From positions 314,573,536 through 314,637,535 of the forward strand of contig NC_073693.1 in the NCBI RefSeq assembly GCF_029784155.1: a DNA stretch of 64,000 bases, read 5' to 3'. The notes under the pieces were generated by a model. The model saw nothing but the letters and a program-made list of their open reading frames with translations. It did no database searches and had not been told where the DNA came from. Positions 2,902-39,380 of this stretch are shown in pieces (the first letter of the stretch is position 1; each line of letters starts with the position of its first letter). Origin of the DNA: Uranotaenia lowii (Eukaryota; Arthropoda; Insecta; Diptera; Culicidae). The position numbers and the translations under genes were made by a program.

Positions 2902-3118
2902 TGTGAGGACTTGATTGCCGCTGGGAAATGGGACCTCGGTAACCGAACACAACCTACCTGCTGAAAAGCTGGGAATTGAAAGAGGACGTTACCTCGTCGG
3001 CTACAAGCAAGTGTGCCGAGTCGGGGATGGGCACTCAACGATGAGTGTCGTGCTTGAAGTGGCATCATCGCTCAGCCCATACCGCGTTGGGTTCGTGTGC
3101 TCAAAGTCAGCCCACACA
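2902..3118 (-). repeat. 3' LTR of the gypsy element
   Basis: 217 bp, matching 9553-9769 throughout. In element sense it starts TGTG and ends CACA. The outer flank 2897-2901 is CCTCC, matching 9770-9774. A purine-rich tract immediately precedes it in element sense. Confidence 0.93.
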
Positions 3119-3818: not shown

Positions 3819-4405
3819 TTACTGCTTGGTTACGATTTGGACATAGTCATTGAGGAACGCCGGTGTTCTTTTAACACGACTGGAACGGCTTGCAATGCCT
3901 GGTTGTGGTGATTCAACATCGCTATTTGTTTTGGAGAATTCGCTTGTGGAAGATTGTGCGGTTGAATCCCGCCACGGTTTTACTTTTTTGGTTTGTGATA
4001 CGTGCCGTTTAGAGATTTTTCCATCCTTGTCGCTGAGGATGAGGCTGCCATTTCGTTCCTCAATGACGGTGTGCCTAGTTGGTGAGAAGCGCGAATCCCC
4101 CTTCATACGTGTTAATCTTTGGACGACCACCTCATCCCCTGGTTTGGTTCGACAATCTCGGGCTCCCCGGCGAGCATCCTCACGCTGTTTTCCGTCTTGC
4201 TTAGCTGCTTGGTCCCTTAGCTGCACCAGGTTGTCGTCAATTGCGGGCTTGTTACGTAGAAGGAGGGGCAGCCCACGCTTGATTTTGCGCCCATACATTA
4301 GCTCTTCAGGTGGCACTTTAGTTATACTGTGGGCAGCCGCGTTGTGAGCCATCACTGCCTTCTTCAACTCCTCGTTGTAATTAGTTTTATCTGCGATAGC
4401 TTCAT
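3819..4405 (-). pseudogene. Integrase C-terminal part, out of frame
   Basis: This is the distal half of the gypsy integrase, continuing the core and the C-terminal tail. About 190 residues are open here: a stretch with NEELKKAVMAHNAAAHS and PPEELMYGRKIKRGLP, which in Ty3/gypsy integrases follows the catalytic glutamate, then a basic tail that ends near the stop at 3819. It lies in another frame than the upstream RT-integrase segment, whose frame ends at 4364. The distance between the glutamate-containing NGLAE and HNAAAHS is about ten residues shorter than in typical relatives, so a small out-of-frame deletion near 4395-4410 is more likely than a single-base change. No splice-site pair is seen here. 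Confidence 0.8.
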
Positions 4406-6398
4406 GGCGCTTTCCGCCAAACCATTTTGCTGCGGAAATAGTGGAGTCGATAGAACTAATGTGATGTCGCGTTGTTTGCAATAGTCTGCAAAATCCTTCC
4501 CGCCAAATGGAGGTCCGTTATCGGTCTTGACTGTCTTTGGGAATCCTTCTTTTTCAAAGATATCATCAAGGACCTTTCTTGTACACTCAAAACTGGTAGA
4601 TTTTATAGGTTTGGCCAAAATGTATCTTGATTTGTAATCGATAATAACAAGTATTAGAATGCCACCGAATTTTACGTAAGGCCCGTTGAAGTCTAGAGCA
4701 ATGGCTTCCCAAGCTGTTTTTGGAATGGGTATTCTTTCCATAGGCGTAGTTCTTTCTGGCTTACCATTAATACAACATGTCCTACACGATTCGACCCAGT
4801 TGGTGACGTCTTTGGGCATGCCAGGCCACCATACGCGTTGCCGCGTTATACTTTTCATTTTTGCGGTAGACGGGTGTCCTTCGTGTGCCACTTCCAAAGC
4901 ACGCATCTGAAGTGCCTTTGGTATAATAGCACATCCAGTTTTGATTATTATTCCTTCCCTTACAAAAAGATCTTTCTCTATTGTTTGATATCTTTTTAAT
5001 TCTGGAGACCAAGTTCCCGTATTTAATGCTTTCATAACATTTTTCAGAATCTCATCCTTATCCGTTGCGTTTCTTATCTCTGTTTCAGTCAGGAATTCAA
5101 CAGCATTTGCCTCGAGAGTGGCTATCTCCCACGGACTGCTCTCTTCATCGAACGGGACGTCTTCTGCGTTATACAACCTTGACGGTGGGTCAGCAATGTT
5201 CTCTTTACCCCGCACATACTCGACATCGTAACGATAAGGACTCAACCTCAGGGCCCATCCATCAGCACGTGTTAAGGCACGCCTTGAGTCATCTCTGGAC
5301 CTGTTCAGGATAAACGCGACCCCTTGCGCATCTGTACGTAGTGTGAAATGTCTGCCGAGTAGGAAGTAGGAGAAATGCTCTACCGCCCACACCGCAGCTA
5401 GTGCTTCCCTTTGGTTCTGTGCGTACTTGCGTTCCGTAGGTGTCAGGGACTTCGAGGCAAAACTGATCACACGCGGGGCTGCATTGCTTCCCTCTTGCAC
5501 AAGCACAGCACCCAGAGCGACAGGGCTAGCATCCGTGTAGAGAATTGTCTTATCATACTCCGAGAAGAAACCCAAGGAAATTGTACAGTCGATTATTCGC
5601 TGTTTAACCGTGACGAAAGCTTTTCTTTGCTCCGGACCCCAAGACCACGATTTCGACGCAGTCGCTGTCCACAAAGGACTGGAAATATCAGCAAAGTTTT
5701 TCAAATACGGGCTAAGAAAAGAGGCCAACCCTAAAAAGCTTCGGAGTTCTGACAGTGAAGTTGGTTCTCTGAAATTGCGGATGCTTCTAATTTTTTCATC
5801 GTTAATATGGAATCCCCGTTCATCGAGCTTATGACCGATGAACTCTAAGCTAGTCTTGTCAAATTCGCACTTAGCAGTGTTTAGTGTCAGGTTGTTGCGT
5901 TGCAAAATTTGTAAAACTTTTTCAACTGTTTCATGAAGTCCTTTTAGGGTGTCCGAGAAGATTAAGAAATCGTCGATGTAAACAATCATGTTGCTGTAAA
6001 CTGGTTTCAGAATTCTCACCATTTCCTGCTGAAATATTTCAGGTGCACAGTTCACGCCAAACATGAGTCTGGTGAATCTGTACATACCGTCTTCAGTCAG
6101 GAACGTGGTCAGTTCCCTAGACTCGTCACATAGTTCTAGGTGATAAAAGGCGTTTCGCAGATCGAGCTTTGTGAAGAATTTTGCTCCGTGGAGTTTGATT
6201 CTCATTTCCTCGAGCAATGGCAATCTAAAAAATTGGCGATTGATCGCTCGATTAGGGGCGCGCATGTTCACCACGAGTCGAAAATCGCTTTTTCCCTTTG
6301 CTACCGCGGACATGCCGCTTATCCATGTGGGGGCGGAGTTTACTTTTTCTATTATATTTTGCGCTTCCATTTCATGTAACCTCCGACGAGCTCCTTCC
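4364..6398 (-). CDS. pol: Gypsy pol: reverse transcriptase, RNase H, integrase
   Basis: The catalytic part of the polyprotein that copies the element's RNA and inserts the DNA. The frame is open from 6553, but the part above 6398 is intron. Counting from 6553, RT motif A (DLRNAF) is near residue 131, YIDD is at 192-195, the RNase H motif TDAS is at 340-343, and the integrase zinc finger has His 557 and 560 and Cys 590 and 593. The integrase triad residues are Asp 621 (DFNG), Asp 678 (TDNG) and Glu 714 (GLAE), so the last spacing is 35 residues. The frame then runs off into a short unrelated tail and stops at 4364. Protease lies upstream across an intron-like gap. RT and RNase H look intact; integrase is broken downstream of the glutamate. 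Confidence 0.93.
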
Positions 6399-6611
6399 CT
6401 GTAAGTATCGTCAAGTGTTATCATGTGTTGAGCGTAAAAATTTAGAGCAGTTATCTTAAAATATTCTGTGACTAGTTTAGTACATTGTTCAGTAGTGAAT
6501 CTTGCAATGATTATCATATTAGCTTTATTAATTATGTTTGTATTGGAAGCCAAGAAATAGGAATAATTGAATAATAATTGTGGTTCATCTTTTTTGTTTT
6601 TTTTTTTTTAC
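6399..6611 (-). other. Spliceosomal intron candidate between protease and RT
   Basis: A 213-bp interval on the minus strand. It begins CAG|GTAAAA (first intron base 6611) and ends CTTACAG|G (last intron base 6399). The protease frame stops two bases into the interval with TAA. RT-domain homology begins immediately after it. Removing the interval joins a split arginine codon and keeps one continuous frame into the conserved start of the RT domain. The interval itself also happens to be open in the RT frame back to 6553, but its sequence there does not resemble RT. A T-run on the plus strand (6595-6609) is an A-rich stretch just after the donor. Not tested by RNA. Confidence 0.8.
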
Positions 6612-7102
6612 CTGTACGCTGCAGGAACATTATAGTAGGCGCTTTTGGTAGGTGGGACTGTTCGGTCGATATTAAATCTAACTTTAACGTCCGGCATTTT
6701 AGGGAAAGGTTGAACCTTTTCGAATTGATTAATGTTTCCTACGCTGAGCAGTCCGATATCACTTGATGTAGATCGACCCAAAAGTGACTTCATCCCTCTA
6801 GGTATGACATGAAAAGTAGTGGTGAGCTTAGGCTTGTTAGACCCAATAATTGCGATTTCAGCTCTGATGCTACACTCAATGGCCAGCGGTTCACGAGATC
6901 CGTAAGCGTGAAGTTTTTTGTTCGGAGAATCAATAATCTCTATTTTTGCTTTCCCTGATTGAGCCTCATTTTTCAGTTGAGTCCAATCATTCCCTCCAAT
7001 TATATTGGCGTCAGCTCCCGAGTCCACGAGAAACCGTATTGGGGTTGATGACCCAATCGAACAGTCAAACTGCACATCCTCGAGAGAAAGGGCATGAACC
7101 GT
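6612..7102 (-). CDS. Gypsy aspartic protease
   Basis: The polyprotein-processing protease of the element, about 163 codons plus two bases. The active-site motif FLVDSGADANIIGG lies near residue 22, which is the expected position at the protease start, and ILGRSTSSDIGLL-like sequence (SLLGRSTSSD) follows about 80 residues later, as in retroviral-type proteases. The downstream part already belongs to the link with RT and ends at an AG|GT donor (6612/6611). The upstream end is an AG acceptor (7103/7102). It has no convincing start codon of its own; a GTG at 7075 is not likely to be used. It therefore seems to be an internal exon between gag and RT. Confidence 0.85.
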
Positions 7103-7242
7103 CTGATTATAATAAAAAGAAAATGTGATGTTGGAGATCAGTCATATTGAAAATCAATCATTGTTTTCCTAATTCCTAAGTTAGTTTTTCTTCTAAAATC
7201 AGTTTATTTATTATTTAATCTCTATATTCAATCATCGTATAC
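7103..7242 (-). other. Spliceosomal intron candidate between gag and protease
   Basis: A 140-bp interval on the minus strand starting CAG|GTATAC (7242) and ending AATCAG|AC (7103). It falls between codons (phase 0) of the gag frame. Without splicing, gag stops five codons later at 7228. With splicing, the gag frame runs directly into the protease frame, which is open for nine codons before the first protease-like residues. The stretch before the acceptor in element sense is T-rich. As with the second intron, the evidence is the coincidence of GT-AG ends with exact frame restoration. Confidence 0.78.
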
Positions 7243-8637
7243 CTGTTTGTGGTCCTGTTTATCGTCATCTGGGGAATCTAACTCCTTTGAAGGGATTTCG
7301 TGAATTCTCTGGCTATGCATGGAGTTGATGTGCTGTTGTTGTCGACATGCCGCCGAGTAGTGACCACGTTGGCCACATTTCCTGCAATCGCGGTCAAGTG
7401 CCGGACATTTCCTATTTCTGTGGCGGTAGAGGAAACACATTGGACATCTGCGCCCCGGTGGCCACTGTCGCTCGCTGTCGTTGATTCGATGGTGTTTAGC
7501 ATACGGTTCTTCGTTTCTGTTGCCGACCCTGTTACGTTTGTGATATTGCTGGTAGTAAGGGCGACCTTGACCACTCCGAATCTGTAAGATGCTAGGCTCC
7601 TCTCGTCGTCTACCTTCGGATTCGAATGCTTCATTGCGGGTAGCGGATTGTACAATGAAGTTCGTTTCGTAGCCAAATGTTCTAGCCTGCTTCACTAGCT
7701 CCCTGCTCCTGAGCCCTGCTAGGAGTTGCGCTCGTACAAATCTGTCCTCGTCTTCAACGCTATAGTTGCAAGATCTCACCTTGCCCATCAATCTAGCGTG
7801 AAAGGACACGGCAGACTCGTCGATTGCTTGGACCATTCTCGAAAAAGCCTCATGTTCTGCGGCCGTATCTGTCATAGATTTTAAGTATTTCTCTATGTTG
7901 GACACGAATGTGCTGTAGCAGCTAGCACTTGACAAACTTGGGCGTAATTTGGCGGCATTTACGATTCCCTGGAGTTCGGTGCCCATAGATAGGTAAAGGA
8001 GCTGGGTCCTCTTGACAGGATCTAGCACGTTGCTGAGGGACGCCGCAATCTCAAAATTCTCAACGTAGCGATTCCACTCCTCCCACATCTTGTTGGCTGC
8101 TACCCCTGGGGGGAACGGTTTTAGATGGTCCCATCGGATGCCTGAATTTACTCTACTACCGTGAATGCTTACTTCATTCGAAAGTTTCCAGCTTTCGTCG
8201 GGGCGAGGATCGGTCTCAACCCTCTTCACCGGTGGGTTTTGGATGTGCATCAAAGCGGTATTAATATTGGCAATCATCTCCTCCATACGCTGGATTCTTT
8301 CGGCGTTGGCGCGGTTCAACGATTCTTGTCCCTTACGCTTGCACGGGGTTGTCTCGGGTGTCGTGTCGGGAGTTGACGAAACCGTAGACGGAGAACCTGA
8401 TGAATATGATGGGGAGCGCGTTTCATCCGAGCTAGAGCTGTTTGCATCATGACACGTAGGGTGCGAGTTTGAGCTTTCGGCGGGAGGTAAAACATCGATG
8501 TTGCTGTGAGTAGTCGCTTGACTTTTCTCGCTGGATTGTTCTATGCTAACCAAACTGTTCGTTTGGTCGTCGCGTACATCTTCGCTGTCTGATCCGGAAT
8601 CGACGATGCGTCGTACGTAATTCGATTTGCGTAGCAT
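7228..8637 (-). CDS. gag: Gypsy Gag with two zinc knuckles
   Basis: The structural protein that coats the element RNA. From the ATG at 8637 it has 465 codons up to the splice donor at 7243, or 469 if translated to the stop at 7228. The frame is open up to 8742, but the upstream part crosses a possible acceptor (AG at 8679-8680) and is probably leader. The N-terminal third is Ser/Thr-rich and low-complexity. A central region around WDHLKPFPPG and MWEEWNRYVENFEIAA is typical of insect gypsy gag. Two CCHC knuckles end the protein: CX2CX4HX4C beginning CPMC and again CRKC. It lies upstream of protease, separated by the 140-bp intron candidate. Confidence 0.9.
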   Translation of the reverse strand: MLRKSNYVRRIVDSGSDSEDVRDDQTNSLVSIEQSSEKSQATTHSNIDVLPPAESSNSHPTCHDANSSSSDETRSPSYSSGSPSTVSSTPDTTPETTPCKRKGQESLNRANAERIQRMEEMIANINTALMHIQNPPVKRVETDPRPDESWKLSNEVSIHGSRVNSGIRWDHLKPFPPGVAANKMWEEWNRYVENFEIAASLSNVLDPVKRTQLLYLSMGTELQGIVNAAKLRPSLSSASCYSTFVSNIEKYLKSMTDTAAEHEAFSRMVQAIDESAVSFHARLMGKVRSCNYSVEDEDRFVRAQLLAGLRSRELVKQARTFGYETNFIVQSATRNEAFESEGRRREEPSILQIRSGQGRPYYQQYHKRNRVGNRNEEPYAKHHRINDSERQWPPGRRCPMCFLYRHRNRKCPALDRDCRKCGQRGHYSAACRQQQHINSMHSQRIHEIPSKELDSPDDDKQDHKQVYDD

Positions 8638-8954: not shown

Positions 8955-9320
8955 CACGACAGTTTCTGACTCGCTATTGAGCGGTCATGCCTGACTAGCT
9001 TTTGCTCGGCCATTTTGGTTAGCTTTTGCGCGGTCATTCTGAACCAGCTGTTGCGCGGCCATTTCCGACCCGCCATTGCGCGGCCATTAGTGACCCGCTG
9101 TTTTTACTATCTAAATCAGCTTTTGCGCGGTCATTTCCGACCCGCCAGTGCGCGGCCATTTGTGACCCGCTTTTGCTATAATCTGAACTAGCTTTTGCGC
9201 GGCCATTTCGGACCCGCCATTGCGCGGTCATTCCAGACCCGCCATTGCGCGACCATTCCAGACCCGCCATTGCGCGGCCATTTCGGCCCGCTGTTGCGCG
9301 GCCATTTTATCGATCCGCTT
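8955..9320 (-). repeat. Tandem repeat in the gypsy leader, 25-bp unit with 72-bp period
   Basis: About 14 units of the form TTGCGCGGCCATTTCCGACC + CGCCA, with variants ending in AGCT. Two consecutive blocks repeat the order unit, unit, TA-rich spacer (GTTTTTACTATCTAAATCAG near 9099 and TTTGCTATAATCTGAACTAG near 9171), which gives a higher-order period of 72 bp. It lies in the 5' leader between the primer-binding-like site and gag. On the minus strand it happens to be open for 78 codons with a 24-residue repeat; I regard this as a by-product of the 72-bp period. A role in RNA packaging or promoter function is possible but not shown. Confidence 0.85.
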
Positions 9321-9552: not shown

Positions 9553-9769
9553 TGTGAGGACTTGATTGCCGCTGGGAAATGGGACCTCGGTAACCGAACA
9601 CAACCTACCTGCTGAAAAGCTGGGAATTGAAAGAGGACGTTACCTCGTCGGCTACAAGCAAGTGTGCCGAGTCGGGGATGGGCACTCAACGATGAGTGTC
9701 GTGCTTGAAGTGGCATCATCGCTCAGCCCATACCGCGTTGGGTTCGTGTGCTCAAAGTCAGCCCACACA
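9553..9769 (-). repeat. 5' LTR of the gypsy element
   Basis: 217 bp, read as identical to 2902-3118. The outer flank 9770-9774 is CCTCC, matching 2897-2901. Confidence 0.93.
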
Positions 9770-9876
9770 CCTCCTATGTCCAAACAGCTTTCAAATTGGA
9801 AGTCAAAAGCGCTGAAGTTTTGGAGAATTTTTTTTTAAATCGTTAAACGTCGAAAAATTTTTTTGGGTTACAAGTA

Positions 9877-19824: not shown

Positions 19825-20500
19825 TGTTGGAACTCGACTCGTGGACTGTATGTAGAGGGGCATTGGGAACGACCACTGGATGCCCGCTCCCCTTGCGGGA
19901 TTGGGCCGGACAGGGCAACCCCCTGTGGTTGCCCAACCAGTGGAGGCAGGTCATCGGGGGACGCTGCCTGGAATGCCAAGACTAATCGACGATTGCCACC
20001 AAGACTCGCTAAACTCTTTCGATGGCTCTTAAAAGAGCCGTTTGGGGGGTGGCAATTGAGAACCGGGAGCAAAATCGTTGGAGCAGCAAGCACTGAGAAA
20101 CACACACTTCACTTAGCTTTTCATGATGTTGTTGTTTATTTCTCTATTCACTGTTTCTCTAATAGCACGATTTGCTTCCGCAACTCAATCGGCTCCGTCC
20201 GAGCACGATTATGGTGAGCAGATTTCCACCCTAGCTGCTTCTCTCTCTGGAGGCTGCTTCTCTCTCTGGCTACTGTTTCGGTTTCTCTTCTTCGGGGATG
20301 TTTTCGGTTCCACGATTGAATGTAGACTCAACTCGCTCGACGAACGGGACCACGGTTTTTATAGCCTCGGCTCGTCGCGCGCTGCTCGCTGATTGGTCGA
20401 TGGTTTTTCTCCCCGCTCTCACGCTTCGGACCGCTTACCTTCTTGCGGTTGCTCTCCTTCGGCTCGCGCGTTTTCTTCAGTCCGTTCTGCGGACTGAACA
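19825..20500 (-). repeat. 3' LTR of the BEL element
   Basis: 676 bp, matching 39712-40387 with scattered substitutions and a small change near 20090-20110. TSD CAGAC lies at 19820-19824. Confidence 0.92.
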
Positions 20501-21579
20501 TCATCCCCGCCGAAAAGTGCGCTCCTCGTGATATGTGGATTTAGGTTGTCCAGTATTGGTAATGGTGCTAGCTTGTGAATTGGTCTCTTATGGGTTTCAG
20601 ATTTAGTTTTAACGTCCACAACTCTTACCAAACCGTCTACTCCAGGGTCAGGTACTGCACAAAGGGTACGTCCTATCATGAGGGGTGTAGAAGTGAGGGC
20701 TTCAGGATCATGAGGATCTTTGTATTCTTGGATTTCTTTGGAATAATTAAGCGATTCTTCGAAGAATGCGGAATATTGAGCTTTTAAGTCGAGTTTTCGA
20801 GTTAACTTTGATTCAAGAAGAAAGAATCTCCTTAGTGCCAAAGAACGGGAGTCTGCTAGTTGCGCCAGATTGTCTTTTAAAGGAAGTTGGACCACATAAA
20901 GACCATTTTTATCACGACGATTGGTGGCTAGGAAATGTTGCTCACATTCATCAACGCTATTGGACGGAACTTCCTCAGGGGTAATGTTCTCAACTTCGCA
21001 AAACCTTTTATCTAGCTTGTCTACAGGATCTGTATTCACGACAAATGAACCCAAGACTGCTCCAGTATGAACGCCCTCATAACAATTTCCTCCTACCAGC
21101 CAACCAAATTGAGAATCTTGCAACGTAGGAAGATTGTCGGACAACTTCAAATAACCTGGTTTCATTATTTCGTAAAAATGGTCCATACCTATAAGCATGT
21201 CTATAGTGTTCATTCTAAAAAAGGAGGGATCTGCGAGTTTGATGCCTGAAGGTATTTCCCAAGTCTCAATATCAGTTGTGTATGACGGAAGAAGGCCAGT
21301 GATTTTTGGCGACACAAGGCATGACAGCGACAACGTAAAGTTATTGCACCTGGAGTAGACTTGGACGGTACCCATTCTCTTCATTACGGATTTAGCACTA
21401 CCAATACCATTAATAGGGACACTCACCTCATTTGTTGGGATCCTCAATGCGTTAGCCATCGACTGCGTTATGAAACTAACCTGTGAGCCACAGTCTAGAA
21501 GCGCCCTGCAGGGATGCGGCTGTTGATCCTTGTCCATCACATTGACCAGAGCGGTGAGCAGGAACACTTGACTCGTCGA
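20419..21579 (-). CDS. BEL pol remnant: protease, RT start, integrase end
   Basis: About 380 codons on the minus strand that begin at the Jockey insertion site and run 80 bases into the LTR. The protease motif LLDCGSQVSFI is near residue 25 and marks a Pao/BEL aspartic protease. A segment GLYVVQLPLKDN and SLALRRFFLLESKL belongs to the start of the RT region. After about 20 more residues, at EIQEY, it changes to ALTSTPLMIGRTL and GVDGLVRVVDVKT, which are C-terminal integrase motifs. The RT active site, RNase H and the integrase core are absent. Two deletions seem needed, one before ALTSTP and one after LIGR-like LMIGRTL, and both kept the frame open. Catalytically dead for replication, though the protease looks complete. 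Confidence 0.85.
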   Translation of the reverse strand, partial: STSQVFLLTALVNVMDKDQQPHPCRALLDCGSQVSFITQSMANALRIPTNEVSVPINGIGSAKSVMKRMGTVQVYSRCNNFTLSLSCLVSPKITGLLPSYTTDIETWEIPSGIKLADPSFFRMNTIDMLIGMDHFYEIMKPGYLKLSDNLPTLQDSQFGWLVGGNCYEGVHTGAVLGSFVVNTDPVDKLDKRFCEVENITPEEVPSNSVDECEQHFLATNRRDKNGLYVVQLPLKDNLAQLADSRSLALRRFFLLESKLTRKLDLKAQYSAFFEESLNYSKEIQEYKDPHDPEALTSTPLMIGRTLCAVPDPGVDGLVRVVDVKTKSETHKRPIHKLAPLPILDNLNPHITRSALFGGDDVQSAERTEENARAEGEQPQEGKRSEA

Positions 21580-21829: not shown

Positions 21830-23620
21830 CTAAACATAAAGAGAACGAATCTCTGCGATGGAAGACTGCATCGATTTGCCTCTGAAGTTGGAGATGATTT
21901 TATTGGCCATCTCTTCGATAGATTCAATGCCTGCAATTCGATGAAGATCTTCGGTGCTGTGCCAAGGTGGAAGCCGCAAAATAATTTTCAGAACTTTGTT
22001 CTGAATCCTCTGGATGACTTTCTTCCTCGTCGCGCAGCAGCTAGACCAAATCGGAACTGCATACATGATCGCTGGTCGGAAAACTTGTTTGTAGATGAGC
22101 ATCTTATTTCGCATACACAACCGGGATTTCCTGTTGATGAGAGAATAAAGAGATTTAGTGTATTTATTACATTTAGATTGAATATCTTCAATGTGATTTT
22201 TAAAAGTAAGATTCCGATCAAGTGTAAGTCCCAAGTACTTCACGTGATCAGACCATTCTAATGAAACCCCATTAAAAGTTATGGAATGATTTTCATTAGG
22301 TTTTAAAAAATTTGCTCTTGGCTTATGGGGAAATAAAATAAGTTGAGTTTTGGAAGCGTTAGGAGAAATTTTCCACATTTTCAAGTAATTCAAAAAGGAA
22401 TTTAAATTTTGTTGCAATCTACTGCGTACCACCCGTAAATTTCGACCTTTTGCTGAAAGCAAAGTATCATCAGCAAAAAATCTTCTACCTTTTCCTTCTG
22501 GTACATCAGGAAGATCAGAAGTAAAAATATTGTATAAAATTGGCCCAAGTATACTGCCTTGAGGGACACCAGCTCTAATGGGTGTCCTTTCAGAGCATGA
22601 ATTTTGATAGCTTACTTGTAAGGTTCGGCTAGTCAAATAATTTTGAATAATTTTGGTGAGATATACAGGAAAATCAAATCGAGCTAATTTAGCTACTAAA
22701 CCTTTGTGCCAAACACTGTCAAAAGCTTTTTCAATATCAAGAAGAGCAACACCAGTTGAATAACCTTCAGATTTGCTAGCGTTAATCATATTAGTTACAC
22801 TCAAAAGTTGATGTGTAGTAGAATGTCCATGACGAAAACCAAATTGTTCATCAGGGAAAATGGAATTCTGATTAATGTGAATTAACATTCTATTCAAAAT
22901 AACTCTCTCAAATAGTTTACTTAAAGATGGAAGCAAACTAATTGGTCGATAACTTGAAGGCTCTGAAGCACTTTTTCCAGGTTTCAAAATTGGAGTTACT
23001 TTGGCATTTTTCCATTTATTGGGAAAATAGGCCAAGTGAAAACATTTGTTGAAAATTTTAACTAAAAAATTTAAAGTGCTTTCAGGCAACTTTTTAAGAA
23101 GAATATAGAAAATCCCATCTTCCCCTGGAGCTTTCATATTTTTAAATTTTTTGAAAATCAATTTAAGTTCATCAATATTTGTCTCACAAGAACTTTCAAA
23201 CACAATTTGCTTAGAAAGAATATCATCAAATTCTAGGGAAATTTGAGCATCAATTGGACTTACAACGTTTAAATTAAAATCATGAGCAGACTCAAATTGT
23301 TGGGCTAATTTTTGAGCCTTTTCTGAATTAGTTAAAAGAAGTTTATCCCCATCTTTCAAAGTAGGAATTGGCTTCTGGGGCTTTTTCAAAATTTTAGTTA
23401 ATTTCCAAAATGGCTTTGAGTAGGGTTTTATGTCCTCTACTGCTTTAGCAAAATTTTCATTACGAATGAAATTTAAACGACGTTTGATCTCTTTTTGAAG
23501 GTCGCAATAAATTAATTTCAAATAAGGATCTCTAGTACGTTGATATTGGCGTCGACGAATGTTTTTCAGTCGTATCAAAAACTGAAGATCATCATCAATT
23601 AAAGGTTGATTGAATTTATG
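21830..23620 (-). CDS. Jockey-like ORF2: reverse transcriptase part
   Basis: The element's polymerase, used for target-primed reverse transcription in the nucleus. About 596 codons are open from the TTTAA insertion site (the first few codons of the wider frame belong to the inserted element). Motifs in order: APGEDGIFYILLKKLP, YRPISLLPSLSKLFERVI, QFGFRHGHSTTHQL, LLDIEKAFDSVWHKGL (motif A), GVPQGSILGPILYNIF (motif B) and FFADDTLLSA (motif C with the catalytic DD). A C-terminal region with KYLGLTLDRNLTFKNHI and a Cys/Arg-rich stretch follows. No internal stop is seen. The endonuclease continues across the inserted element at 25227. Confidence 0.93.
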   Translation of the reverse strand, partial: HKFNQPLIDDDLQFLIRLKNIRRRQYQRTRDPYLKLIYCDLQKEIKRRLNFIRNENFAKAVEDIKPYSKPFWKLTKILKKPQKPIPTLKDGDKLLLTNSEKAQKLAQQFESAHDFNLNVVSPIDAQISLEFDDILSKQIVFESSCETNIDELKLIFKKFKNMKAPGEDGIFYILLKKLPESTLNFLVKIFNKCFHLAYFPNKWKNAKVTPILKPGKSASEPSSYRPISLLPSLSKLFERVILNRMLIHINQNSIFPDEQFGFRHGHSTTHQLLSVTNMINASKSEGYSTGVALLDIEKAFDSVWHKGLVAKLARFDFPVYLTKIIQNYLTSRTLQVSYQNSCSERTPIRAGVPQGSILGPILYNIFTSDLPDVPEGKGRRFFADDTLLSAKGRNLRVVRSRLQQNLNSFLNYLKMWKISPNASKTQLILFPHKPRANFLKPNENHSITFNGVSLEWSDHVKYLGLTLDRNLTFKNHIEDIQSKCNKYTKSLYSLINRKSRLCMRNKMLIYKQVFRPAIMYAVPIWSSCCATRKKVIQRIQNKVLKIILRLPPWHSTEDLHRIAGIESIEEMANKIISNFRGKSMQSSIAEIRSLYV

Positions 23621-23625
23621 TTTAA

Positions 23626-25221
23626 CCACAGACAAACAGACAGGACACTTAGAAGGAAATTGATAAGAATTTTCGCAAGAACCTACACTGCCATCTATCG
23701 CCGGTATTGCCTACCAATCAGCTATGTTTAAAAAAAACTGATCCAGGTAGCCAACGATATTTAGATGTTATCAGGAAATGTAAACAAATAAATTTTCCAT
23801 TTGTGCTTTCCAATTTGCTTGTTTGAAGCATGATCAACATAGTTTAAATCACTGGAGAATAAAAACAAGAAATCTGACAATTATTTTAAAGAAAATGACC
23901 CTTATTATCGTTCAGGAGTGTCCTGGGATTAGGAAGTGGCCTGGTTGGGACCGAAGGTAATATGGAGACTCCGCAAACTTCAATGAGCGATAGCAGCATA
24001 GCGGATTGTTATTATTACTGTATTAATGTATCGTTATGTGTTTAAGATTAGTTATCTCATTGCAGATGGATTGATTGGAAAATTCACAAACTGAACCGTT
24101 TACCAACATCATTTTTTTGTAATCCTGTAAAAATGTTTCCAAGACAGCTCGAAAACATAATAGAAACTGGCGGATAATAAATATTTATTTTGGTGGAATC
24201 AATTATCACTGTGATGCTCGTCAGCGAATACAGTCCGCCGGAAGTGGAGAGTTTCCGAAATTTGAAATGCCTTCAAAAACGCTACGGATGTTAATCTGCG
24301 CCACAACTCAAAACTCAATTGAAAATAAAATGTTTGAGCCTCGAAAAAAAAAGTGCATCAAATATACTGTTTTCCTATTTGAGGTCTTTTGAAAAAAAAA
24401 AAAAAAACAATTATAAAACGTTTACTTATTGACATCTTGTGATTTTTTTAAACGATCTTTTTATTTTATTCTCAAACAAGTCAGAAAAGCAACGTCTGCA
24501 TTCAACAATTTGCGGGAACATAAAAAGGGCATCAGGACAGGATAAACATGATTCGAGTATCTCTTACGCTCTGCACAGGAAAACAATTTTCGGTAGTTCG
24601 TTCCGTTCCGGTATGGGTGGTCATAATCAAAACACAGTTAACTTTTAGCACTTTTAGGTCCTAACTAACTGCACAATCTGTGTAATGCTTCCGTTAATTT
24701 TCCGTGTCAACGTTCGATAGTAATACTCAAAGAATCAATTTCTTGAAGTTTTCTGAAAGAATTCATAAAAGTATTAGAATTATGGATTAAGATACAACCT
24801 ATATTTTCTGCATACGAAAAAAAAGAATGAGACTACTGATTCCTTTGAACAACTTCTGCGCTACATACTTGATCTCAGGTCGTTTTCCGTTAAATACAGG
24901 AACTTTCGAGGCTCAGAGGCGAATCTACCCAGCAAGCCTCTATAATAAAACAAACAAACAAACAACAGCACCAAATACTGCCATCCGGATTCACAAAACC
25001 GTTTTTGATTCATGTATTTTTTTCAAATAGAGTTGCGTATTGAAGTGGTTTCGAATCGTCAAAGTAAACAAACAAAATCACAAGGGCTACCATGATGCAA
25101 AATTTTGATTTCTCAAAAAGTGAGGCAGAGTTATCTGGTGGCGACATTGCCTACCTTCGAAGCTTAGTGATTACAGTTTTGCGAAGAATGAAAACAGAGT
25201 GTCCCGTCTGTTTGTCTGTGG
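23626..25221. mobile_element. TTTAA-flanked inverted-repeat element, non-coding
   Basis: Terminal inverted repeats: the left end is CCACAGACAAACAGACAGGA, then CACT; the right end is the complement, reading GTGTCCCGTCTGTTTGTCTG then TGG. TTTAA is duplicated on both sides (23621-23625 and 25222-25226). Removing the element and one TTTAA restores ORF2 of the Jockey-like LINE in frame between a Val-Lys and a His-Lys pair. The 1.6-kb interior has only short frames. The core TTAA in the target recalls piggyBac-type targets, but the termini do not start CCC-like in the same way as the element at 18851, so the superfamily stays open. Confidence 0.82.
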
Positions 25222-32750: not shown

Positions 32751-33994
32751 TGAGGCCCTTGGAGCCAAAGGGGTATAAGTGACAAAATGGAAAAAATCGA
32801 GATAACCATCTAGAACGAATCCTTGACTCTCAATCATCATATGCTATTTTAATCATAATTTTATTTCACTATTTTATTATGTTTAGATGTCGTTGAAAAA
32901 ATCCTGCTAACTGAAATTTCCTTTTTGTTTGGAGCCAAAGGGGTATAAGTGTTGTACTTATACCCCTTTGCCTCCAAAGTCCATTAAACTGATGTACTTA
33001 TACCCTTTTGCCACCAACCCTTACTTGATTTCAAGAAAGTAATGTTTTTTCATCGGGACCAAAAAAATTTAAAATAAATGTAATTCACTTTTCTTTTGAA
33101 TAGCTGATGATGTTTAAAAATTTACTATCAACTGTGTCTCATCTGATTGCATTTAGTGATAATTCTAGTAGAAAATAAAATTAATATATTTAATTATTTG
33201 TTCTAATTCAATAACAAATTAGCGGATCACAAATTCCTGATTTCTGAATATATGGAGTGTGTCACGGATTAAAGGCTTATAAAGTACAAAAAAGTATGTT
33301 TACTAGATAACTAGGTTAATATTGAAGCGCCTATCGTTAATTTACTGTAAAAAACCAACTCAGAGTGACCGCAAGTCCCATTCCAATACCCAATTGATTA
33401 GGCAAAGACGTACAAAACATGTGATGACTGGAATTTAGTGGAAAATACCTTTCACGAATTAATATTAATTAATCCTGATGAAAAAACGTTGTTTGGAGAG
33501 ATTTACTAGAAATTGCCAAGACCAGGTCGATCTTCAGCCATGAAATCTCTTAACCTACTGTACCAGAGCATTTTTCTCATCAAAACACAAAATTATATTT
33601 ATACAAAAACTAATTGACTCTTGTAGCAATGAATATTTATGGTTTCTGACCCATATCAACAAGATCAAAAAACTTGGATGTGAAAATTCGTTGGTGGCAA
33701 AGGGGTATAAGTGAATTTATTTGGTGGCAAAGGGGTATAAGTGCATGTGTTTGGAGCCAAAGGGGTATAAGTGCCAAATTTGAAAAATATGCGTCGCCTC
33801 ATAAAACGTCAAATAAACGTTGTTTTTTTTGGGAAAATGTACAAAATGCTTTGTTTTTATTTAAGAAAATCATTCACATGAAAAAAATTCATAAAAAATT
33901 TCTATGGAATTCACAGAAACATAACGAAGTTCAAGTGCTTTTTTCTCGAAATCAGCTTTTATGCACTTATACCCCTTTGGCTCTAAGGGCCTCA
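32751..33994. mobile_element. TA-flanked MITE with iterated GGGGTATAAGTG motif
   Basis: 1,244 bp. The ends are TGAGGCCCTTGGAGCCAAAG and its complement; TA flanks both sides (32749-32750 and 33995-33996). The terminal repeats are about 32 bp. The motif GGAGCCAAAGGGGTATAAGT, or its GGTGGC variant, occurs eight times near the ends: direct at 32759, 32931, 33690, 33720 and 33749; inverted near 32960, 32990 and 33964. The interior is non-coding. Removal restores the host LINE frame. Iterated subterminal motifs are typical of transposase binding sites. Probably Tc1/mariner-like by its TA target, but the transposase source is unknown. Confidence 0.87.
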
Positions 33995-36421
33995 TATGAT
34001 TGCGTAACGAACATTGAAATTCATCAGCGGGAGAATTGGAACGGGGAATGCTTCACATTTGCTTTAGAATATTATCAAACTGAAAAACTGTTTTATGAGT
34101 TTAACCTAGGAATAAGCGGTAATGAAAAACTGAAAATAAAAAAAATTGAACCAGATGGAAATTGCCTCCTACGATCAATATTGGACCAATTAGGAATGTT
34201 CTAAGATTGTTCACTTACTTCTGATTACAATACTTATAAAATAAGACAAACAATAGCTTCTTATATACAGTTACACAGAGAAAGGTTCGAAATATATCTC
34301 ATTGAATATATGGATCAAGTTAATAGTTTTGACAGAATAATAGCAAGGTTTAGAGAAAATGGATTCTGGCTCGGGCATGAGGCGATAGTTACATGTTCAG
34401 AACTTTTCAAATTGGGTATCCAAGTACTTAGTCAAAATCACTCACAGATACTGATGGGGGAAACATTCGAAAGGAATGGTGTACTGAGCATATTCTACTG
34501 TGGTGCTGGTGTTCTTAACCATTACGACAGTGTTGTTAGCTTTTCAGAACACCCGAATACCTCAGAAATACAGAGTACAACACACTTAACTACTAATGAA
34601 GGAGTGGAGAAACAGTATAATCGCCAGAACACCGTATTGAAAAATAGCTCAGGTTCCAGGGATGAGGTAAAAGATAAGAGAAAAAAAGAAATCAAAATTG
34701 CTTCTTGGAATGTTAAAGGGTGTAGAAGTGTAGACAAACGTACTGAAATCGACGAAATATTGAACCAATTCAAAATTGATATAGCTTTACTACAGGAAGT
34801 AAATGCTCTAGGACAAGAAATAAGTACTGCTAATTTTGATTGGTTTATAACAAGACAAAATGACAACAAATCACGAGGACTAGCTATAGCGGTTAGGAGG
34901 CAATTAGACATTCAAGTAATCCAAACTAAATGCGAATATAAAGGAATATTATGGTGCAAAGTAAGAGTAGGAGGAGATTTGTTGATTTTGGTTAATGTTC
35001 ACGGGCCGAATAAAAAACAAAACAACTTTCTGACAAATTTGTACGAAACAACAAAAAAAGACAGAAGAAAATTGATCATTGCAGGAGATTTCAATGCACA
35101 ATTGGGTAGGGAAGACTTAGCCAAAATAGACGAAGAGATCATAGGTAAAGTGCTGGGACATGATTATTGTAATGAGAACGGTGAATTATTTAAAATGTTT
35201 CTTCATAACGCATCTCTTAAAAATATTTCATCAATAATAGGTAAACGAACTGAGACAACTTGGAAAGCTGCGGGAAAAGAAAGCCAGATAGACCATGTTC
35301 TTAAGCCAAAATTTACAGACTATTATATAAGATACATAAAAGGATTTTGGACATCAACAAAAACGGACCATAAACTTATCACAATAGGATTAGTTATACG
35401 AGAAGGAATACAAAGAAATATAACAGGAAAACTTAATAGAAAGCTTAATCTAGAATTATTGAAAATACCGAAAATAAGAGAAAAATATCACAAAAAATTG
35501 GAAATTGGGTTAAGTTCAATAATATCGGGAAATAACATTAGTGAAAGATATAATGACTTTGCAAATTGCATTAAAAAAGCAGCATATGAATCATGTACAG
35601 ATGCTAAAATCCCTCTCACTCCAATTAGAAAGAAGGCATTCTCACGGCTCAAGAAAGCTCTAGAACTCACAAAGAAATATCCGGACATGCAGAATTTCAA
35701 ATACAAATTGTCGAATAGGAAATTGGAATACAATCAAACAGTCAAAAAACACAAGGAGAAAGAAATAACGCTATTCTTTAAAAACCTAAATGACTTTGAT
35801 GCAGGAATTCGAACTAGAAAAACATATAATTATCTCAAAGATTTTGTGAAACAAAAAAAACGAAAAATTGCTAATATTAGTTCTAAAACTTGGGAAAATA
35901 TATTGGCATTATGCAAAGGGGCAGAAATTGAACTCTGTAAAGTTCATGATTATACTCCTCTTCCGAATCCTCCTACTTTTGAAGAAATAAATACCATTAT
36001 TAAAAATTGTTGCAATGGTAAATCACCAGGAGCGGACAAAGTACACACGGAGTTTATAAAATATGCGAACGAAGATACTATAAAATTGTTGACAGAAATT
36101 ATCAGGGACGCTTATACCACGAATGAACTCCCCGAAGAATGGAACAAATCAATTCAAGTACCGATTCCCAAAAAAGCTGGAGCAAGAGAAGCAGATGACT
36201 TTAGAAGGATATCGTTGTGTAATGTTGTGTATAAAATATATGCTAGATGGTTAGACGGTAAAATTAGATCTTTTGCGAATGAAGTAGGATTACACCAAGC
36301 AGCATTCACAAACAACCGTTCTACAGAGGATCATATTTTTGTAGCCAGACGTGTAATGGAGGAATGTTGGAATGCAGGTCAGGATCTTTTTGTTTTGACA
36401 TTAGATATAAGAAAAGCTTTT
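33995..36421 (+). CDS. OTU LINE main frame: OTU protease, endonuclease, RT start
   Basis: It continues the frame after the MITE. The OTU-type cysteine protease begins with EPDGNCLLRSI (catalytic Cys codon 34163-34165) and ends with NHYDSVV (His codon 34520-34522), with WLGHEAIV between them; such enzymes cleave ubiquitin-like chains. One TAA at 34202-34204 interrupts this domain. The APE endonuclease follows: SWNVKG near 34697, LLQEV, IAGDFNAQLG, SQIDHVL and TDHKLI. The RT region begins near 36000 with KSPGADKVHTEFI, ISLCNVVYKIYARWL and AAFTNNRSTEDHIF, and motif A (LTLDIRKAF) is cut by TAA at 36422-36424, just where the next residue is usually Asp or Asn. Confidence 0.9.
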
Positions 36422-36424
36422 TAA

Positions 36425-36829
36425 AATATCAATCTACACTGTCTAGATAACGTTCTCCTCAACTTAAATGTGCCATCTCGATTGATTGACAGAGTTTTAG
36501 AAGCCATTAGAAATGAAATGACACGAATTAGATGGGAGAATCAGCTATCTGAGGAAGTGAAAAGAGGAAAAGGTATCAAACAGGGGTGCCCATTATCACC
36601 ACAGCTGTTCAACCTTATAATGCAGGATGTGCTGCAGAAAGTTCAACAAAAGATTCCGCAACTTAAACTTATGGGATTAGAGGTGCTGGAGTTACCCTTG
36701 CTTCTTGCCTTTGCCGATGATTTGCTCTTGATTACGATGAATAAAACAGATCTTGAAATAGCAACGAAAGTTATTGAGGAAGAGCTAGCGAGGGTAGGAC
36801 TAGACATAAATAATAAAAAAGCCAAGTTT
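36425..36829 (+). CDS. OTU LINE RT core, motifs B and C
   Basis: In frame with the segment before the TAA at 36422. It carries GIKQGCPLSPQLFNL (motif B) and FADDLLLI (motif C with the catalytic Asp pair). It ends with a frameshift in the T-run AAGTTTTGATAAG near 36830. Confidence 0.9.
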
Positions 36830-37554
36830 TGATAAGTTACCCAGACAATTCCAAACTTAGAGCAGAGATAATTTTAAATGGGAAAAAATTTAAGGTCAGT
36901 TCCAAATTGAAATATTTGGGTGTTTGTTTAACTGCCACATTAAATAGGAAGATGTCAAATAGAGATAGGTGCAGAAATGCTTTGCAGGTATCAAAATTAG
37001 TTAGAGAGTTTTGTAAGAAATTTAAACCTAAGTGGGAGTTGGGTAAACTTATCTATAAGACTGTCATTGCCCCATCTCTTTTATATGGAACTAAAGTGTC
37101 AGTTCTCGTAAAGAAAAGTAGGATTTCTCTGGCCAACTACGAAAAATTCATCCTTCGGCAGATCTTCATGAACTGCGTGAAGCCGACGGGACTTAAATTC
37201 AATGCTATGAATCTTTTAGAGGGAAAAACGATAAACCGAAGAGTAAGAGTAGGAAGGATTTGTTATTATGGTCATATTGAGAGAAGGGAACCAGGACATC
37301 CTTTGAAATTAGCTTATAATATGAAGACAAATAAAAATAAAGAAGGAAGACCAAGTTTGACATGGACGAAAATGCTTGAGGCGGATTTTCAAAAGTTGGA
37401 ATTTGCATCTGAACAAGAATGGCAGGATATTGTGAATGATAGAGAAAATGTGAAAAAAAAAGCAGAGGAACTTTATAGGAGTATCGAAAGTGAAATCTCG
37501 GATGGTAGGTCTTCGGATGACGAAAGTAAACATTGGAAAAACAAAAAAATCTAG
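36829..37554 (+). CDS. OTU LINE C-terminal part of ORF2
   Basis: About 240 codons in a shifted frame. It contains the RT thumb-like KYLGVCLTATLNRKM, ALLYGTKV-like SLLYGTKVSVL and a C-terminal GHIERREPGHPL with GRPSLTWTKML, a pattern often seen at the end of RTE-like proteins. The stop is at 37552-37554. Confidence 0.88.
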   Translation: MISYPDNSKLRAEIILNGKKFKVSSKLKYLGVCLTATLNRKMSNRDRCRNALQVSKLVREFCKKFKPKWELGKLIYKTVIAPSLLYGTKVSVLVKKSRISLANYEKFILRQIFMNCVKPTGLKFNAMNLLEGKTINRRVRVGRICYYGHIERREPGHPLKLAYNMKTNKNKEGRPSLTWTKMLEADFQKLEFASEQEWQDIVNDRENVKKKAEELYRSIESEISDGRSSDDESKHWKNKKI

Positions 37555-38124
37555 TGGAGAATGAAGCTTGAAAGATTTATCCTTGTCCATTTAGTATTAA
37601 ACATAATGATTCGCTATTCCTAACTTTAAAGCTCCTCACCTTACACATTTAATAAGTTCTAACCCATATTTTTTTACAGAACAAAAAAAGGTTTGTTATA
37701 AATATTTATTTTTATATCCATATATTCATATTTTCATAATTAAATGACGGGGAGGGGAAGGGCCATCCGGACACCCGATCGAAACGATGTGGGAAGGTAG
37801 AGTGCACTGGGCAGTTACCTTCGCATCACATCGCCGAGAGAGGGCGGGTTCGTCTACACATCCTATGGAACATTCCACATCATAATAGCTAAACTTCCTG
37901 ATTATTGGCAATAGATTGTTCTTTCGGCGGAGACAAACCATCCTTACCCTAACTGAACTGTACTAGTTACTCTACTAGAACCTTCACTCCCTTGGAACAG
38001 TCCGCTCAAAGGCAGTTTAGAGTTAGTAAACATGAGATTTGGATCAAGTTATGATGCGAGATAGTTCGCTGCAAACGGGCTGTGCCATGCTACATAGGAT
38101 GGAAGATTACATCATACATCATAC
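37555..38124 (+). other. 3' UTR of the OTU LINE
   Basis: 570 bp. It includes an AT-rich part and a GC-richer block at 37745-37870 (with CCGGACACCCGATCGAAACG). The end is two copies of ATCATAC, directly at the target duplication. Short tandem tails instead of poly(A) occur in RTE-like LINEs. Confidence 0.65.
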
Positions 38125-39380
38125 AACAACGAGTGATGTTTCCGTTGGCATTTGGAGCAGGACATCTTTGAAGGACAATCAATTGCTCGATGTCTTCGGC
38201 TTAGGCAATTGAAGCAAAGATTTTTTTCTCTTACGTTGCTGATCCTTTGGCTGACCGACATTTCGTTGAACTGGGGGCACTCGTAGATCCGGTGACCTCT
38301 GGCACAAAAATCACAGTTTTGCTCTTGTTGTGCTGGGGAAGTGGCCGTGTTGATCCTCGGATGTCTTGGTAGATTGAACCTCGAAACATGGCGATGCTTG
38401 GTAAAACCTATCTCGGCTGAGGATTGACAGCGCTCCAAGACGGACACCCTCTCCTTGAGAAAGTGAATAGTGTCTTCATATGTTGGCAGCTCACCCTTCC
38501 TGATAGTGGACTCCCACAGCTTCTTTGTCTCGTCATCCAAGGCACGAGAGATCAGGAACACCATCATGTATTCGGCTACCTCAGCGAAACCTTGGCCCAG
38601 AAACTTGAGGTTGTCGACATGACCATCAAAAGTCTCTACCAGAGACCTCAACTCGGTGAATGATTCGCTGTGTAACCTTTTCACACCCAGCAGGCCTGCT
38701 AGATGACGATCAATCATTCGTCGCTGGTCGGAATATCGTTCATCCAATAGTTGCCAAGCTCGAGCGTAGTTGCCGTCGGTGATAGTTTTGGCATCTATCA
38801 ACCCGGCTGCGTCTCCAACTAGAGCCTTCTCAAGATGGTATAGCTTGATGCGATCTGGCTCGTTAGTTCTGTCGACCACATCCTGGAACATAACCTTAAA
38901 CTTCTCCCATTGTTCGAAGCGACCATCGAACGTTGGTATTGCTCTGGGAAGAGAAGGTTGGATGACCAAAGGCGGCTGGCTGTTGGTGAGCTGCGGCTGC
39001 GGCTGCTGTTGCGGCTGTGGCAGTAGAGTTGGCGAAAGCTTGTCGAGCCAACTTTCTAGCATCATCGATACTTCCTCATGCAGGTCAACAAAGTTGAAAT
39101 ATTCGTCGTCATTTTCTTCACGCTCGGCTGGAGATGACTGGGCGAGGATTTCATTGTATTGCTTGGTGAACTCGGTTTTCGAACCTTCCACACTCCGCTG
39201 GTATACCTTTAACTGAGCAGGAGTTAGCTCAGCTCCTTCCTCTTCCGCCTGCTGCAGGATGGACTTTATCCTGGATACATTCCGCTGCGCTAGTCCACGG
39301 CTATGAATCAGCACCTCCAGCATGTCGTGATTCCTCACTGAATCAGGGCTGTTTTTCACTGGTGTTCTTTTTGGAGGCAT
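38125..39380 (-). CDS. gag: BEL/Pao Gag, cut at its end
   Basis: About 418 codons from ATG 39380 to the OTU LINE insertion. It is a BEL-type Gag: N-terminal coiled-coil-like region, a Gln/Pro-rich linker (PQPQQQPQPQ), the conserved LPRAIPTFDGRFEQWEKFKV and FQDVV core, EKALVGDAAGLID and HSESFTELRSLVE. It ends with knuckles CDFCARGHRIYEC, CFNCLSRRHRAIDC and CSKCQRKHH. The frame continues into the LINE for a few false residues to a stop at 38112. The leader to the 5' LTR is 331 bp. Confidence 0.92.

Follow-up and report, generated by a model that had tools for sequence, protein, structure and literature searches.

The stretch analysed here (the window, 64,000 nt of the mosquito Uranotaenia lowii) carries on its minus strand a Ty3/gypsy element of 6,868 bp (9769 to 2902), in which two short intervals separate the coding regions of gag, protease (PR) and reverse transcriptase (RT). 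From sequence comparison, we propose that each of them is a spliceosomal intron belonging to a Ty3/gypsy element of mosquitoes, and that together they act as a switch between Gag and Pol production, a reading to which we give a probability of about 0.78. Removal of the two intervals restores a single gag-PR-RT frame exactly, and both boundaries recur in the proteins of related elements.

Two intervals interrupting gag-pol

Interval 1 (7242-7103, 140 nt, phase 0) lies between gag and PR with the ends CAG/GTATAC...AATCAG/A, and interval 2 (6611-6399, 213 nt, phase 2) lies between PR and RT with the ends CAG/GTAAAA...TTACAG/G, the stroke marking the exon boundary. Both have the features of spliceosomal introns: GT-AG ends, richness in AT (a GC content of 24% in interval 1 and 27% in interval 2, against 44-50% in the exons) and restoration of the frame upon removal. 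In RNA left unspliced, the gag frame runs into a TGA (first base 7230) as codon five of interval 1, and the PR frame stops immediately in interval 2 (AGG TAA, TAA at 6610). The PR frame holds 11 stops between 7267 and 7144 and is open only beyond 7144; this stop map leaves no overlap between the gag and PR frames, and a frameshift would therefore be unable to join gag to PR.

Removals bounded by GT and AG, with a minimum length of 60 nt, were tried around each join, with short flanks only. At the gag-PR join (donors 7330-7229, acceptors down to 7061), three removals leave the way from gag to PR open, each from donor 7242, and acceptor 7103 alone yields the linker found in the relatives, KQ/TVHALSLEDV (VHALSLEDV). 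At the PR-RT join (donors 6760-6561, acceptors down to 6301), 14 removals leave PR to RT open, and 6611-6399 alone yields NVPAAYREGARRRL (NVPAAYR/EGARRRL), as in the relatives. The restoration of the frame by the two intervals is more than chance. A first-pass annotation of the window had already given the coordinates, lengths and GT-AG ends with CAG/GT donors of both intervals, as well as the two stops met by unspliced RNA, and all of these are right; its claim that removal joins gag, PR and RT in one frame proves exact.

Two other observations concern interval 2. Behind its first codon (6399-6607), an in-frame ATG is present within the open RT frame. The six-mer TACAGG occurs at both edges of the interval (6394-6620), which fits a duplicated target site or the splice-site consensus, and may have a bearing on the origin of intron 2.

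The same boundaries in related proteins

The gag search gave 112 matches, of which 14 were dropped because they had no recognisable second knuckle. Among the 98 kept, 89 end at most 45 residues past the second knuckle and nine run on. In 78 of the 89 short tails, a Q, K or E is followed by V and by no more than five further residues up to the end, against a mean of 13.0 and a maximum of 24 tails with the same pattern in 2000 rounds of shuffling; in eight of the 11 non-matching tails, the pair lies deeper, 6 to 16 residues before the end. As CAG/GT, AAG/GT and GAG/GT translate as Q-V, K-V and E-V, this pattern is what a translated splice donor looks like. A consensus donor, GTRAGT, would in this phase put Ser after V, and Ser is found there in none of the 78 tails.

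The gags that run on meet PR through a common linker. Eight of the nine continue into a sequence like INALSL or VNALTL, seven of them after Q or K; the linker of P0214 is preceded by H, and the join is less clear in P0250. The RT search yielded five gene models with a linker of the same kind (P0031, P0041, P0050, P0060 and P0081). At this place, Gag is connected with PR in two gene models, P0150 (Aedes albopictus) and P0155 (Armigeres, isoform X2), and both end at NVPAAYR, which is the shape expected of a product from which intron 1 is removed and in which intron 2 is retained. Two pairs of proteins diverge at this site: P0230 and P0198 are 98.9% identical across 276 residues up to DRDAGK, beyond which the former continues into PR and the latter into V followed by a stop, and P0249 and P0211 diverge in the same manner after 275 residues, at EKQ. 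P0249 is an annotator's model and is evidence only that the site was chosen; for P0230, which comes from Logan contigs (RNA or DNA), the simplest readings are a spliced RNA or an intron-less copy.

At the other join, the PR exon was searched with a length limit that favours short open reading frames (ORFs). Among the 25 matches, 13 end exactly at the last PR Arg of the window, 11 go on towards RT and one breaks earlier. An AG/GTAA or AG/GTGA donor in this phase is a stop codon at the Arg, which would explain the common end, and the matches sharing it are only 54-69% identical to the window. Of 801 RT matches, 120 were listed: 101 fit the junction pattern in one reading (e.g., NVPAAYREGAKRRL in P0008), six (P0002, P0003, P0005, P0006, P0007 and P0067) start at the first Met past the join, and 13 start elsewhere or miss the pattern. 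The 101 include P0058, a U. lowii gene model that is not truly read-through, as it exits PR at the same place (NVPAAY/S) and skips to a later acceptor. The start of P0067 is doubtful because its nearest kin read through, and may be an annotation choice only. Interval 1 appears to be far commoner among the relatives than interval 2. Named proteins, both in the 112 gag matches and in the 120 listed RT matches, all come from mosquito genera.

Some of these matches presumably belong together. P0147 (gag), P0122 (PR) and P0002 (RT), each from a contig of 5313, probably share one contig, as do P0159, P0130 and P0006, each from a contig of 6631; P0156 (gag) and P0004 (PR-RT unbroken), both from a contig of 5832, would represent one contig with the first break and without the second.

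A protease tree was built from 66 of 126 rows, hand-picked after a quick tree of 124 rows and comprising all 16 that stop at the Arg, 40 near and 10 far, P0058 being excluded. The window falls in a group of 12 rows, all stopping at the Arg (support 93/64), together with P0150 from Aedes and P0155 from Armigeres. The remaining four stop-at-Arg rows are found in a second group of six, with the unbroken P0008 and P0135 among them. The tree requires at least four changes in the state of the second break, and both repeated loss via copied spliced RNA and repeated gain at one favoured site fit these changes.

A proposed splicing switch and its alternatives

In the mechanism that we propose, unspliced RNA would serve both as genome and as template for Gag, since translation would meet a stop a few codons past the first donor. 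RNA without intron 1 would be translated into Gag-PR, which would end there because the second donor holds a stop (AG/G UAA), and RNA without both introns would give Gag-PR-RT-integrase. Splicing would in this way take the place of frameshifting in the supply of Gag, Gag-PR and Gag-Pol. Both donors of this copy are without G at position +5, and off-consensus donors of this kind would result in partial splicing, which would provide an excess of Gag over Gag-Pol and leave intron-bearing genomes for packaging. Weak donors that spare unspliced RNA are known from retroviruses. The absence of Ser after V in the 78 gag tails, taken together with the lack of G at +5 in both donors, is in agreement with donors kept weak and with the survival of unspliced RNA. 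The identity of the two long terminal repeats (LTRs) and the target duplication around them show that this copy arose recently, from RNA in which both intervals had been retained.

Several observations weigh against this reading. Interval 2 has a length divisible by three, and the RT frame has no stop in its 69 further codons where 5.4 would be expected (P 0.0023); an open interval of this length is not predicted by intron status, and could be due either to chance or to a trace of coding origin. Its acceptor, judged by eye, is poor in pyrimidines. In the relatives, donors and acceptors are deduced from protein ends, the gene models are predictions, and three of the 89 short gag tails (P0149, P0188 and P0207) have no donor-like pair near their end. 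A single clade of all 16 stop-at-Arg rows is rejected by the approximately unbiased (AU) test (AU p 2.1e-10), which excludes a single origin without losses. The first-pass annotation, which had proposed splicing instead of frameshifting, had named straight read-through in other copies as one of the observations that would refute it, and this is what three close relatives (P0004, P0008 and P0135) display at the PR-RT join, though they adjoin relatives that stop. Its proposal is supported in part: it is favoured by the interrupted gag-PR-RT order, the exact frame restoration, the stops behind the donors, the identical LTRs with their target duplication and the boundaries recurring in relatives, and is weakened at interval 2 by the relatives that read through.

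Other explanations have to be considered. Both intervals could be spliced as ordinary host introns without setting the Gag:Gag-Pol ratio, being passengers kept by occasional unspliced copying. In the tree, rows that have the PR-RT break adjoin rows that lack it, so that the second break is dispensable; but the donor-like pair stands beside the stop in 78 of the 89 gag tails, and Gag-Pol needs the first splice here since a frameshift is impossible, which makes this explanation unlikely. We regard as somewhat less probable again that interval 1 alone is an intron, and that interval 2 is an in-frame insert whose TAA at 6610 is read through to give PR, about 70 residues and RT. Its 213 nt in the RT frame without any other stop would be accounted for, as would the stop position kept in 13 of the 25 PR matches. 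Against an insert stand the 27% GC of interval 2, the insert-free sequence of the read-through relatives (NVPAAYREGAKRRL in P0008), the fact that exactly one GT-AG removal recovers the PR-RT sequence of the relatives, and the interrupted P0002, P0003, P0005, P0006 and P0007, which start at the Met past the join without insert-coded residues.

Simple decay, with the intervals as insertions in a dying copy that were never spliced, would agree with the broken integrase frame of this copy. It is very improbable in view of the identical LTRs and of the same boundaries in relatives from other genera, a recurrence that makes a private decayed insertion unlikely. A programmed ribosomal frameshift joining Gag and PR is common in the superfamily, according to PMC3735527, and has almost no probability here: gag terminates at 7230, stops persist in the PR frame up to 7144 and it opens only after, and the stop map rules out a frameshift at this join for this copy.

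Extending the splicing switch beyond this copy, we give about even odds to the following history. In a large clade of mosquito Ty3/gypsy elements, a choice between splicing and stopping at the gag-PR join would have taken over from frameshifting, with selection keeping the off-consensus donor that is translated as Q/K/E-V directly ahead of the gag stop; two groups within the clade would carry the PR-RT switch as well, its donor doubling as the stop codon (AG/G-UAA), so that Gag, Gag-PR and Gag-Pol would form a ladder of three steps; and intron 2 would have been acquired or lost on several occasions at a single fixed site. Such repeated gain or loss is expected if spliced RNA is occasionally copied back. 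Many retroelements fix the Gag:Gag-Pol ratio on the ribosome. If our reading is true, this clade would fix it in the nucleus, and retrotransposition would be tied to the splicing and RNA export of the host; one would then have to ask how introns persist in a genome that is copied by way of RNA. A natural series for the study of intron gain and loss would be offered by elements that have, or lack, the second interval at a fixed position. There is also a practical side, as annotators convert such elements into multi-exon genes (K02A2.6-like, LOC models).

The element, its surroundings and known systems

The domain order PR, RT, RNase H, integrase and the direct TG...CA LTRs with a short target duplication identify the element as Ty3/gypsy. 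On the minus strand, it begins after the upstream GGAGG of the 5-bp target-site duplication (9770-9774) with the 5' LTR (9553-9769, 217 bp), followed by tandem repeats with periods of about 24, 25 and 72 in the 5' untranslated region before gag (8994-9307). The gag exon (7243-8637) has 465 codons from ATG 8637, a start picked by comparison with P0147 in a frame that is open from 8742; its zinc knuckle matches Pfam weakly, below cut-off. Beyond the proposed intron 1 (7103-7242), the PR exon (6612-7102) has aspartyl protease matches just below the Pfam cut-offs, and beyond the proposed intron 2 (6399-6611), the matches to RT, RNase H and integrase (zinc-binding and core) are clear in the following exon (4364-6398). 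The pol frame is broken within integrase: this exon ends early at 4364, and the remainder of integrase is in a different frame (3819-4481), the two ORFs overlapping at 4364-4481. The 3' LTR (2902-3118) and the downstream GGAGG (2897-2901) close the element. P0058, the best RT-integrase match by identity (99% over 63% of the query, among the 120 listed of 801), continues through the 4364-4481 region, which indicates that unbroken copies exist. The first-pass annotation had called the element young and its LTRs identical; the identity holds (217/217 bases, with the target duplication), and this copy is young, yet it is not autonomous, because its integrase frame is broken, and would need help from other copies.

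BLAST of nine pieces of the element revealed no further copy within the window, with just two chance-like matches of 24 and 16 bases. No match to the element was found in the viral contigs scanned, the Rfam scan returned none, and no tRNA gene was detected by a scan in bacterial mode. Other elements are present in the window. A non-LTR element (33674-37554) has endonuclease and RT matches within 34310-36424, and its ORF 33674-34204, which has no Pfam match, ends in GNCLLRSI, an ending that we take to recall an OTU-type protease. On the minus strand, a gag-like ORF (38112-39380) matches DUF1759, which is presumably typical of BEL/Pao elements; ORF 20419-21567, with aspartyl protease and DUF5641 matches, is perhaps a BEL/Pao remnant, and ORF 21830-23635 is a non-LTR reverse transcriptase.

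Splicing is known to influence other LTR elements. In the Ty1/copia elements copia of Drosophila and BARE1 of barley, it shifts the balance between Gag and Pol, as described in PMC3735527; there the spliced RNA makes Gag, whereas in the present element Gag would come from unspliced RNA and Gag-Pol from spliced RNA. Cer1 of C. elegans is, like the present element, an animal LTR element with splice sites in its genomic RNA, which must leave the nucleus unspliced (PMC10309623); unlike the product proposed here, its spliced RNA encodes a separate protein and not Gag-Pol (PMC12786077). Three Mag-like elements of Culex quinquefasciatus carry tandem repeats in the 5' untranslated region, as the present element does at 8994-9307, a likeness in this feature alone that assigns no class; the sections of PMC3286476 at hand report no gag-pol introns in them and give a primer-binding site complementary to tRNA-Leu or tRNA-Ser as a feature of the Mag lineage. 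Searches of the open-licence literature by title and abstract opening, which leave subscription journals and Repbase notes outside, brought up no paper that describes introns within gag-pol of a mosquito Ty3/gypsy element.

The nearest parallel is offered by Ogre, of the plant Tat lineage, where the interval lies between PR and RT. PMC3735527 and PMC12786077 call the Ogre introns functional and describe a spliced interval between pol reading frames. The present element has an interval between PR and RT with exact boundaries, for which splicing is proposed from the sequence; it differs from Ogre in having two intervals, the first at the gag-PR join, and in the stop built into its second donor. 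Its named kin are all from mosquitoes, and relatedness to the plant Tat lineage was not found. The element would work like plant Ogre, yet it belongs to a different lineage.
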